In this document: one piece after another, positions 54,020 to 57,098 of the stretch
How the letters are laid out: each line of letters starts with the position of its first letter
Numbering within the stretch: the first letter of the stretch is position 1
DNA from: Cyclobacteriaceae bacterium
Lineage (GTDB): Bacteria; Bacteroidota; Bacteroidia; Cytophagales; Cyclobacteriaceae
Assembly (NCBI GenBank): GCA_020436125.1
Contig: JAGQYK010000011.1
Location: 1-57,098 of the forward strand
Direction: 5' to 3'
Length of the DNA: 57,098 bases
The notes under the pieces: model-generated
Seen by the model: only the letters and a program-made list of their open reading frames with translations
Databases searched by the model: none
What the model was told of the DNA's origin: nothing
Position numbers and translations under genes: made by a program

Positions 54020-54463
54020 ATGGATACACTACGGGGAATTACTAAATCTTTAGAAGATACTTATGATGGAGAGGCATGGCACGGTCCCTCCATTAAAAAA
54101 ATTCTTTCTGAGATTCCTCCCGAAAAGTGTGACTCAAGAATCGGGAATGGCCATTCTATTCTAGAACTCGTCCTTCACATGGCTGCCTGGAGAAGTTTCG
54201 TTGTACGCAAATTACTAGGAGATAAAGATTTTGACATCAATGACGAAACCAACTTTCCAAAAGGAAAAAATTGGCATCAAACTCTTGAAGAATTAGAGGA
54301 AAGCCAAGAGCAATTATTAAAAGCAATCGCGTCTTTCGAAAAGCAAAAATTACAAGATTTGGTTCCTCACCGAAAATATTCTTTCCATAAATTACTGCAT
54401 GGAATTGTCCATCATGACCTCTACCACCTTGGACAGATTACCATGATTACCAAGCAGTTCTAA
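54020..54463 (+). CDS. DinB-family protein
   Basis: A 147-residue four-helix-bundle protein. VLHMAAW (about residue 50) and HHDLYHLGQITMI (about residues 131-143) carry the His residues that form the metal site in DinB/YfiT proteins. Many relatives are thiol-S-transferases that use bacillithiol or other low-molecular-weight thiols; no specific substrate can be named. It starts 2 nt after fabG and probably shares its transcript. A weak hairpin (ATAGGG 54480-54485 with CCCTAT 54497-54502) follows the stop. Confidence 0.82.
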   Translation: MDTLRGITKSLEDTYDGEAWHGPSIKKILSEIPPEKCDSRIGNGHSILELVLHMAAWRSFVVRKLLGDKDFDINDETNFPKGKNWHQTLEELEESQEQLLKAIASFEKQKLQDLVPHRKYSFHKLLHGIVHHDLYHLGQITMITKQF

Positions 54464-54537
54464 AAAAACCTAACGACTAATAGGGTAGTGTGTTTTCCCT
54501 ATAACGTACGGTGGGGAGTAAAAAAAATTATTAATAT

Positions 54538-54569
54538 TTTGGAAACTCTACTAAACTAGTATACGTTTG
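54538..54569 (+). promoter_or_regulatory. promoter of the metY-osmC-metX operon
   Basis: TTTG (54538-54541) and TACGTTTG (54562-54569) are separated by 20 nt and match the Bacteroidota -33 TTTG / -7 TAnnTTTG consensus exactly. The predicted start of transcription is a few bases after 54569, about 35 nt before the riboswitch P1 helix and about 400 nt before the metY ATG. Confidence 0.75.
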
Positions 54570-54606
54570 TATCATCAAGTCGAGCAAGCAGTGTCTGCTT
54601 AATCGA

Positions 54607-54710
54607 TTTATAAAGAAGCGCTGAGAGACAGGCTCTATGAAGCGCTAGCAACCTGTTCAGTAGAACAAGGTGCTAATTCCTGATCCCGACAAGTGTTGGG
54701 AGAATATAAA
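54607..54710 (+). promoter_or_regulatory. SAM-I (S-box) riboswitch
   Basis: The outer P1 helix is TTTATA (54607-54612) with TATAAA (54705-54710). Between them are the S-box core blocks in order: CTGAGAGACAGG, CTATGA, GCAACCTG, AAGGTGCTAATTCCTG and GGGAGAA. SAM-I riboswitches bind S-adenosylmethionine and turn off methionine-biosynthesis genes. The gene order downstream, metY, osmC, metX, agrees. It is separated from metY by an unusual cysteine-rich leader frame, described next. Confidence 0.93.
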
Positions 54711-54723
54711 ACGATTAGTAAAA

Positions 54724-54851
54724 ATGAAAAATTCAAATTCGTTAGCACACAAGCAGGAAGCCTTACACGGTTCATTCGCTCGATCCATTCATTCTATTAT
54801 TTGCACACCCCCACTTATGCGTTGCACTACGATGTGTACGTGTACGTGCTG

Positions 54852-54864
<13 letters not shown>
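54724..54864 (+). CDS. cysteine-tract leader peptide upstream of metY
   Basis: A 46-codon frame begins ATG 54724, 14 nt after the riboswitch P1, and ends at TAA 54862-54864. The last 13 residues are CTTMCTCTCCCCC, that is Cys34, 38, 40 and 42-46 with Thr between; one further Cys is at 27. Such a run is far outside normal composition and mirrors the regulatory codon runs of amino-acid attenuators (His, Leu, Trp). The final Cys codons are TGC TGT TGT TGC TGC. The DNA 54852-54861 covering these codons is complementary to 54884-54893. The encoded peptide most likely senses charged tRNA-Cys. I regard the frame as real, with the sensing role inferred. Confidence 0.75.
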
Positions 54865-56299
<1,435 letters not shown>

Positions 56300-56304
56300 A
56301 CAAG

Positions 56305-56754
56305 ATGTCCGTATTAAATTTTAACGTAAACGGTGTAAGTAAAAGCGCCACCAAACTAGAGTCAAAAGCAAGGAGCTTTAACATCACCATTGATGAACCA
56401 GAAGACCTGGGAGGTAAAGATGAAGGCCCCAACCCAGTAGAGTATATTCTTGCAGGGTACGCAGGATGTCTTAACGTAGTACTCAATCTTGTTGCCAAAG
56501 AAAAAGGTATTCAAATCAACAGCCTCAAATTGGATGTAAATGGCGATTTAAATCCTTCCAAGCTATTGGGTGGAAATGAAGATCGTGCAGGGTTCAGAGG
56601 GATTAATGTCAATATAGAAATTGATAGCCCTGCTAGTAAAGAAGAGTTAGAAGTACTCCTCTTTGAAGCAAAAGGTCGTTGTCCGGTAAATGATACAATT
56701 GCCAATCCAACACCTATTCAATATGCCATTAAACAGCAGGTTTTTGTCAATTAG
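56305..56754 (+). CDS. OsmC-family peroxiredoxin-like protein
   Basis: A 149-residue OsmC/Ohr-fold protein. The two redox cysteines are C55 in GYAGCLNVVL and C126 in GRCPVNDTI, the positions used by OsmC to reduce hydroperoxides. It starts 5 nt after metY and ends 2 nt before the metX GTG, so it lies inside the sulfur operon. A redox enzyme within methionine synthesis suggests a role in handling persulfides, sulfide or oxidised thiols made by the pathway; this is an inference. OsmC-like proteins elsewhere act on organic peroxides. Confidence 0.88.
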   Translation: MSVLNFNVNGVSKSATKLESKARSFNITIDEPEDLGGKDEGPNPVEYILAGYAGCLNVVLNLVAKEKGIQINSLKLDVNGDLNPSKLLGGNEDRAGFRGINVNIEIDSPASKEELEVLLFEAKGRCPVNDTIANPTPIQYAIKQQVFVN

Positions 56755-56756
56755 CA

Positions 56757-57098
56757 GTGGAAGCAAAAGAATATCTATATCACCACAGTAAAAGTTTCAA
56801 ACTGGAGTCGGGTAGTGCACTGCCTGGCTTCCAATTGAAATACACTACGCTTGGAAAATTAAATGTAGAGCGATCAAATGTGATATGGGTATGTCATGCG
56901 CTCACTGGAGATTCATCTGTCAATGACTGGTGGAGAGATTTATTTGTTGAAGAAGGTCCTTTTGATCCTAAGGAACATTTTATCATTTGTGCCAATGTAC
57001 TGGGGGGTTGTTATGGATCTACGGGGCCTTTGTCCATAAACCCAGATACAACGGAACCCTTTTATCATGACTTCCCAATAATTACCAATCATGATATA
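56757..57098 (+). CDS. metX: homoserine O-acetyltransferase, 3' truncated by window edge
   Basis: The frame starts at GTG 56757, 2 nt after the osmC stop, and is open to the last base (114 codons). It reads LESGSALPGFQLKYTTLGKL, then VIWVCHALTGDSS, FDPKEHFIICANVLGG and CYGSTGPLSINP, all typical of the N-terminal part of MetX, an alpha/beta hydrolase that acetylates homoserine with acetyl-CoA. The catalytic Ser lies beyond the window. A few sister enzymes are succinyltransferases; the motif pattern and metY partner favour the acetyl form. Confidence 0.93.
   Translation, partial: MEAKEYLYHHSKSFKLESGSALPGFQLKYTTLGKLNVERSNVIWVCHALTGDSSVNDWWRDLFVEEGPFDPKEHFIICANVLGGCYGSTGPLSINPDTTEPFYHDFPIITNHDI

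Follow-up and report, generated by a model that had tools for sequence, protein, structure and literature searches.

A SAM-I riboswitch and a Cys/Met-codon leader ORF in conserved series ahead of metY in Bacteroidota

The riboswitch, the leader ORF and the metY operon in the window

The window analyzed here is a stretch of 57,098 nt from a Cyclobacteriaceae bacterium (contig JAGQYK010000011.1, positions 1 to 57,098), and all features described below lie on its forward strand. A SAM-I (S-box) riboswitch aptamer was found at 54605..54712 (RF00162, full length 1-108, 78.8 bits versus a gathering score of 44.4), and it was the sole Rfam match at gathering scores in the window. The 3' strand of its P1 helix, TATAAAAC, was placed at 54705..54712 by the cmscan alignment, 12-19 nt 5' of the start codon of a leader ORF. 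This ORF of 46 codons plus TAA occupies 54724..54864, with the ATG at 54724 and the TAA at 54862-54864, and its translation is MKNSNSLAHKQEALHGSFARSIHSIICTPPLMRCTTMCTCTCCCCC. The peptide ends with CTTMCTCTCCCCC before the stop and contains 8 Cys in the final 13 residues, 5 of them consecutive, plus one earlier Cys; the corresponding Cys/Met codon tail (C T T M C T C T C C C C C) spans 54823..54861. A preliminary description of this DNA had reported the same frame directly behind a SAM-I riboswitch, and both were recovered as described, but its distance of 14 nt between P1 and the ATG was replaced by 11 nt (54713-54723), since the aptamer as modelled ends at 54712.

The metY gene (O-acetylhomoserine sulfhydrylase; TIGR01326, 667 bits versus a cut-off of 495.1) starts 109 nt after the leader stop and extends over 54974..56299. 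It is followed by an OsmC-like gene at 56305..56754 (NF041052, 98.4 bits versus a cut-off of 95) and by the 5' part of metX at 56757..57098, of which the first 114 codons are present; the best family of the latter was TIGR01392 (E 1.2e-35), with a score under the cut-off because the window end cuts the gene. The gene order metY-osmC-metX given earlier was thereby confirmed. The place of the OsmC-like gene inside the met operon varied, 5' or 3' of metY depending on the genome. It preceded metY, with the S-box and the Cys leader ahead of it, for example at loci L038, L044, L047, L086 and L107; its best family in L047 and L086 was NF041052, below the cut-off with a shortened translation, while its identity in L038, L044 and L107 was judged by resemblance.

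Calls of TTTG/TTG-type motifs are based on the Bacteroidota promoter consensus, and a promoter-like motif of this type, TTTG-N20-TACGTTTG, was found by sequence at 54538..54569, 5' of the S-box. Rfam searches of 54450-55000 at E<=5 gave no match but RF00162, and no second Rfam riboswitch was detected at gathering scores in the leaders of 13 relatives. The same genome has a second S-box on another contig (C174:2903-3026, L002), which is without a Cys leader and precedes a frame resembling metH, as judged by eye.

Conservation of the arrangement ahead of metY

We collected 218 metY loci besides the window, comprising 80 named loci, 29 order-wide loci, 79 order-search regions and 30 class-wide regions. 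The order search gave 196 genomes with a metY match, from which we examined the 29 top-ranking loci other than the window, together with 79 regions, and the class search gave 47 such genomes, with 30 regions examined. Using a covariance model built from 18 S-boxes, we detected an S-box upstream of metY in 75/80, 87/100, 7/8 and 14/30 loci by set, that is, in 183/218 loci, or 184/219 with the window. A leader was defined as Cys-type if an ATG-started ORF near the P1 end had at least 3 Cys in its last 14 residues, a rule that scores as negative some Met/Cys-rich or stop-distant tails (L206, L212, L229 and L274). The results showed that a Cys-tailed ORF followed the S-box in 137/184 metY loci and, after identical peptides were dropped, in 128 of the 173 distinct leaders, counts which are not independent events because near-identical species remain among the 173. 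For two of these 128 leaders no next gene start was found, and analyses of the RNA 3' of the stop refer to the other 126.

Short frames with Cys runs do occur by chance elsewhere in this genome, and the leader ORF might be one of them. The genome has 39 matches to TGYTGYTGYTGY, of which 30 were examined; two of these are this leader, and another, on contig C33 (L149), is a frame ending with CCCC at its stop, but it overlaps an open frame of 194 codons. Dinucleotide-shuffled leaders, however, carried a Cys-tailed ORF in just 0-4 of 173 cases over 20 rounds, so that a chance origin was ruled out and retains a negligible probability in our view. A codon-run ORF is therefore conserved in place, as is characteristic of amino-acid leader peptides. 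No Cys-tailed ORF was found behind the S-boxes of other genes (0/22), and a leader common to all S-boxes was thus rejected.

Conservation at closer range also stands against a chance ORF. The nearest locus, L033, has a metY 92% identical to that of the window; its ORF has diverged, with gaps that preserve the frame (3 in the body and 2+1 in the tail), and the Cys run is retained along with P1, the start and much of the post-stop RNA. Cys tails were also present in four genomes of the same genus (L115, L117, L118 and L119). The preliminary description had held that loss of the frame or of the Cys run in close relatives would speak against a leader peptide and had proposed a search for the arrangement across Cytophagales genomes; the run proved to be retained in these relatives and the arrangement to be widespread. 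When the Cys label was mapped on a tree of MetY from the 80 named loci, it required 5 changes versus 22.1 with shuffled labels, although bootstrap did not settle the tree; as read from it, the Cys-tail label is inherited. On sequence grounds, the S-box followed by a Cys-tailed leader ahead of metY is a real, conserved arrangement.

Start position and tail composition of the leader ORF

The 128 Cys-type leaders ranged from 14 to 60 codons (median 41), and their bodies were not conserved; what is kept is the start position and the composition of the tail. The leader ATG lay at +7 to +11 nt after P1 in 105/128 leaders. Cys made up 40% of the final 14 residues versus 1.2% of the body, and Met 8.8% versus 1.0%; the earlier notion of a Cys-run leader thus held for the Cys tail itself, but the tail is one of Cys plus Met. 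The last Cys was the final residue in 85 of the 128 leaders and the penultimate one in 26. Within the last 14 codons of 127 leaders, TGY occurred 713 times in frame versus 153 and 30 times out of frame, and ATG 156 times versus 10 and 7. Judged by this frame bias, the enrichment of Cys and Met in the tail is the result of codon-level selection, a pattern consistent with translation of the leader.

If the TGY run were instead an RNA motif (a protein site, a pairing strand or a Rho-loading region) rather than a series of codons, its role as a pairing strand in the window and L033 would be accounted for, as would a stop-to-gene region that is C-rich and G-poor (22.5% C and 13.1% G, C>G in 124/126 loci; for comparison, the 100 nt 5' of the aptamer have 16.8% C and 14.5% G, with C>G in 124/182). 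We regard this as improbable: the reading-frame bias of both TGY and ATG is strong, TGT (483) and TGC (273) are both used, Cys stands immediately 5' of the stop codon in most leaders, and pairing of the run is not general in the family. Slightly less probable still is a small Cys-rich peptide with a function of its own, such as metal or thiol binding, in place of a sensor. Its Cys-rich C-terminus and the translation-like codon pattern would suit such a product; the variable length, the unconserved body and the absence of the ORF at all 22 non-metY S-boxes do not, and the peptide of the window matched no NCBIfam or Pfam family at E<=1.

The P1 helix and the leader start

Relative to the leader ATG, the P1 3' strand spans -17 to -10 at the commonest spacing and -19 to -12 in the window, where it presumably falls in the ribosome footprint of the leader ORF. 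By anatomy only, this corresponds to the ppe2 type of control, in which a riboswitch element overlaps the initiation region of a uORF. The start region of 111 leaders was rich in A, which occupied -3 in 54% and -6 in 57% of them. In PMC6847099, initiation in Bacteroidetes is described as lacking a Shine-Dalgarno sequence, with A at -3 as a positive determinant and tuning by mRNA structure. The P1 3' strand itself was TATAAA in 101/128 Cys-type leaders and in 40 of the 45 Cys-less metY S-boxes, and GATAAG or GATGAG in 18 of the 22 non-metY S-boxes.

We searched the 70 nt after P1 for an anti-P1 strand and scored it against shuffled sequence. In Cys-type leaders there was no such helix beyond chance (mean 10.2 versus 10.26 shuffled; 9/128 at p<=0.05), with a good strand in a few, e.g. 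L199 and L208. The other two groups tended to have one: the Cys-less metY S-boxes scored 12.34 versus 10.88 shuffled (9/45 at p<=0.05) and the non-metY S-boxes 13.9 versus 12.2 (4/22 at p<=0.05). The result for the Cys-type leaders is most simply read as masking of the leader start by P1 itself. An ATG at +6 to +12 was also kept in 42/45 Cys-less metY S-boxes (5.1 expected), and in several of them the anti-P1 strand overlaps it, so the spacing signal may be partly one at the RNA level and not translational.

A TTG-N18-22-TANNTTTG motif was present 5' of the S-box in 98/172 metY loci and within the leader in 1/126, and the aptamer, leader and operon therefore most likely form one transcript. 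The position of this motif, the spacing between P1 and the ATG and the restriction of the ORF to metY S-boxes support the earlier proposal that the S-box and the codon-run leader stand in series.

RNA between the leader stop and metY

Two mutually exclusive folds were predicted after the Cys codons of the window. In fold A (54852..54893), the Cys codons UUGUUGCUGC (54852-54861) pair with GCAGUAACAA (54884-54893), perfectly with one G-U, and enclose an AUUCU:AGAAU helix; the segment 54845-54900 gave -15.6 kcal/mol and a z of -3.0. Fold B (54875..54927), predicted with the Cys codons left out, is a rod-like hairpin of GAAUAC:GUAUUC and GCAGU:ACUGU (54863-54945, -14.2 kcal/mol, z -2.84). The main helix of fold A and fold B were both predicted in L033 as in the window. 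A U-rich tract, UUUUCUUUUUUU (54939..54950), was identified by sequence 11 nt past fold B and 23 nt before metY, and at this distance a canonical terminator is not evident in the window; the best hairpin with a T-tract reached only -6.0 there, and L033 has no canonical terminator.

Across the family, the post-stop RNA was more stable than its shuffled counterparts (mean z -1.47; 56/126 loci below -1.5 and 1 above 1.5). Terminator-like hairpins with E<=-8 kcal/mol followed the stop in 32/126 loci versus 10.8 after shuffling; a general intrinsic terminator was rejected, as only a minority of Cys-type leaders have one. Pairing of the Cys codons with downstream RNA reached p<=0.05 in 12/126 loci (about 6 expected), and in the thermodynamic version it amounted to 10.5 pairs versus 12.7 shuffled, with 4/126 at p<=0.05. 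Of 49 loci having a terminator-like hairpin, only 6 had an arm with unusually good pairing to the leader tail. Pairing of the Cys codons was therefore not borne out as a family-wide feature and is kept for the window and L033. The leader had earlier been proposed to sense charged tRNA through its codon run; exclusive folds are predicted in the window and L033, but a classical terminator/antiterminator built on Cys codons is not general in the S-box-type leaders.

The distance from stop to gene had a median of 130 and a minimum of 50 nt among the 126 loci, so that in the family, as in the window, the uORF stop is set apart from the gene start, whereas translational coupling would have the two overlap or abut. 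The step that controls metY expression may differ between clades.

A further structured element, which we call R2, follows the leader stop in 19 Chryseolinea-type loci, mostly 43-67 nt past it (L034:1378-1452, L040:1383-1457, L047:929-1003 and 16 more; alignment A2). It consists of GCAACA, an outer helix (TAGCC:GGCTA, TAACC:GGTTA and others) and a TGCC-nnGTGACr-GGCA hairpin with a GUGAC loop. With a fixed register on the MAFFT alignment, 88.1% of cells paired and the covariation score was 0.251, values reached by none of 500 shuffles; two of five measures did no better than the shuffles, the number of pairs changed on both sides being equalled or exceeded in 40 of 500 and that of pair types in 336. 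RNAalifold predicted only 3 pairs on the alignment, the outer helix was not significant in a free-register test (270/2000 permutations as good), and no Rfam match at E<=5 was found for R2 in L042 (1215-1520). R2 was detected in 3 of the 56 sources searched (L115, L117 and L118) and in 7/98 family genomes, with one match each, and it was not detected in the window's own genome. Being rare and not found in the window, R2 was ruled out as the general mechanism.

metY loci without an S-box

Of 35 metY loci with no detected S-box, 10 carried, no more than 800 nt upstream, an ORF whose last 12 residues include at least 3 Cys. Within 480 nt upstream, ORFs with at least 4 Cys were found in 5 loci versus 0.17 shuffled, and with at least 3 Cys in 10 versus 1.33; several of these leader tails were rich in Met and Cys (CMCMCCMCM and similar). 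Rfam searches of 20 of the 35 loci gave no match at gathering scores. Five loci from other Bacteroidia families (L259, L263, L264, L266 and L280) combined Met/Cys-rich ORFs with strong terminators 32-56 nt before metY. The 5' arm of the terminator paired with the leader in L259 (p 0.00), L266 (p 0.005) and L263 (p 0.025 and 0.015), the last of which carries two leader-terminator units in tandem. Such pairing was mostly not found in the other 32 loci, being absent in L264 and L280, and in L259 and L266 the remaining terminators lacked it. The pairing in L259, L263 and L266 points to a Met/Cys-codon control of metY within the class that is separate from the S-box, and the leaders with terminators suggest a polarity in which shortage of the amino acid turns the operon on.

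This modularity, with Cys/Met-tailed ORFs at metY loci lacking an S-box and S-box metY loci lacking a Cys tail, is what two independent regulators placed one after the other would produce, the S-box acting on metY through a conventional platform, by termination or by masking of the start site, and the Cys leader separately through ribosome position. The enrichment of terminator-like hairpins after the stop fits them as well. Such independence is nonetheless unlikely, though less so than the readings of the ORF as an RNA motif or a functional peptide, given that Cys-type leaders have no anti-P1 helix beyond chance, that the P1-ATG distance is nearly constant and that the AU-rich P1 3' strand lies inside the initiation region.

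A probable two-input leader

We consider it probable, from the anatomy of these leaders, that the S-box switches translation of the leader ORF and that ribosome position on the Cys/Met codons sets metY expression. The output of the S-box would be ribosome start on the leader ORF, at an AUG some 9 nt past P1, with no helix of its own acting on metY. SAM would close P1, the 3' strand of which is part of the initiation region, and leader translation would be off. At low SAM the leader would be translated, and ribosomes would slow or stall at the Cys/Met codons if charged tRNA-Cys or tRNA-Met were short; their position would then determine the folding of the RNA behind and, through it, expression of the metY operon. 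For the window, this predicts that a ribosome positioned on the Cys run covers the 5' strand of fold A, so that fold B could form, and that fold A is restored when the leader is untranslated or quickly finished. The polarity we prefer is that a stalled ribosome turns the operon on; full expression would then require both low SAM and a shortage of sulfur amino acids.

Whether this extends to much of Bacteroidota is, in our judgement, evenly poised. The metY SAM-I riboswitch would there have no platform of its own and would act through initiation of a Cys/Met leader, forming an AND gate whose inputs are the SAM level and the charging of sulfur-amino-acid tRNAs, and in the window the sensed Cys codons would themselves be the fold-switching strand. 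Two-input control of this kind would link sensing by a metabolite aptamer to the reading of tRNA charge by a ribosome, in fixed order within one leader, as laid out in the 128 distinct leaders. It would be a natural gate for the end product (SAM) and the supply of sulfur amino acids and, in a phylum lacking Shine-Dalgarno sequences, a likely form of output for SAM-I riboswitches. The arrangement also offers a means of recognising leader peptides in Bacteroidota.

Relation to known leaders

S-box leaders of Bacillota work via terminator/antiterminator helices; the aptamer family is the same, whereas the Cys-type leaders described here have no anti-P1 helix beyond chance. The Bacteroid-trp motif (RF01692) encodes Trp-codon leaders and had no Rfam match in the window. 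In the excerpt of PMC2864571 it is likewise a cis-regulatory leader of Bacteroidetes, but it concerns a different amino acid and gene and comes with no riboswitch.

Cys-run leader peptides are known in Actinobacteria, as the preliminary description had stated, at the cys operon of Mycobacterium and Propionibacterium and at cbs of Bifidobacterium (PMC1262725, in the section cited). As outlined there, they resemble the present leaders in being short ORFs with a Cys run near the stop, ahead of sulfur genes and without an obvious conserved terminator hairpin, but they precede other genes in another phylum, and that section mentions no preceding riboswitch or Met codons. Attenuation by Cys leaders in mycobacteria was reported by Canestrari et al. 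2020, as cited in passages of PMC9031893 and PMC13236596, and the title of that paper terms the Cys ORFs leaderless, unlike those here. Given the different operon and phylum, we infer that the actinobacterial leaders are a functional analogue at most. The uORFC-8-2 before cysS in Rhodobacterales is also a Cys-codon uORF with predicted ribosome-mediated attenuation; according to the excerpt of PMC8632094, it differs in carrying its Cys codons as a tandem pair inside a stem, in having an intrinsic terminator, in its target cysS, in belonging to Alphaproteobacteria and in lacking a riboswitch.

Riboswitches with uORFs have been described for the B12 riboswitches of ppe2 and metE in M. tuberculosis (PMC11260477). 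In the part of that paper considered here, the first target of the ppe2 riboswitch is, as proposed for metY, a translated uORF that sets expression of the main gene; the aptamer is of the B12 class, the uORF overlaps the gene (AUGA) and works by termination-reinitiation, whereas stop and start are 109 nt apart in the window, and no codon run is reported there for the ppe2 and metE uORFs. The SAM-II riboswitch of Sinorhizobium metA similarly stands before a Met gene and affects translation at a distance, but it is of another class, and the passage of PMC9373788 mentions no codon-run leader peptide. For Bacteroidota, PMC7366714 mentions sORFs resembling attenuation leaders, and PMC9723704 gives hints of leader peptides ahead of amino-acid operons; neither excerpt has the S-box and Cys leader arrangement. 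Among the matches listed in a search of the open-access literature, no S-box with a Cys-codon leader was found, in line with the earlier statement that none is known behind an S-box in Bacteroidota. Cys-run leaders and riboswitch-controlled uORFs are each known; the S-box with a Cys leader combines both.

Distribution and loss of the Cys run

Named loci with a Cys tail include those of Chryseolinea, Chryseosolibacter, Fulvivirga, Marivirga, Pontibacter, Cesiribacter, Thermonema, Bernardetia, Solitalea and Mucilaginibacter, together with Saprospiraceae- and Flavobacteriales-labelled MAGs. The Cys run was missing and the S-box kept in loci of Algoriphagus, Echinicola, Cyclobacterium, Belliella and Aquiflexum; in the same clade as Algoriphagus, the run was present in Arthrospiribacter, Mongoliibacter and Pararhodonellum. 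The Cys run is thus not obligatory, because it was lost with the S-box kept in most Algoriphagus-type Cyclobacteriaceae, and clades with the riboswitch that have lost the run provide natural controls.

Several Algoriphagus-type loci (L058, L060, L066, L183 and others) have lost the Cys run and retained an ATG at +9. The P1 3' strand of such loci can pair just 3' of the ATG, which may mean that the switch was remodelled into a hairpin at the start site. In Chitinophagaceae, none of the three S-box metY loci had a Cys tail, and L096 and L110 had a Cys-tailed ORF upstream and no S-box. Two metY S-boxes of this family, L082 and L101, have a GATAAG-type P1, no Cys leader and a strong anti-P1 helix, GATAAGTCAG:CTGATTTATC, resembling a conventional S-box. 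At five further loci (L232, L233, L237, L248 and L249), all confined to one family of the order, ORFs of 13-18 codons with a CMP or CCMP motif start at +10 behind the S-box, and these are perhaps a reduced form of the Cys/Met leader.
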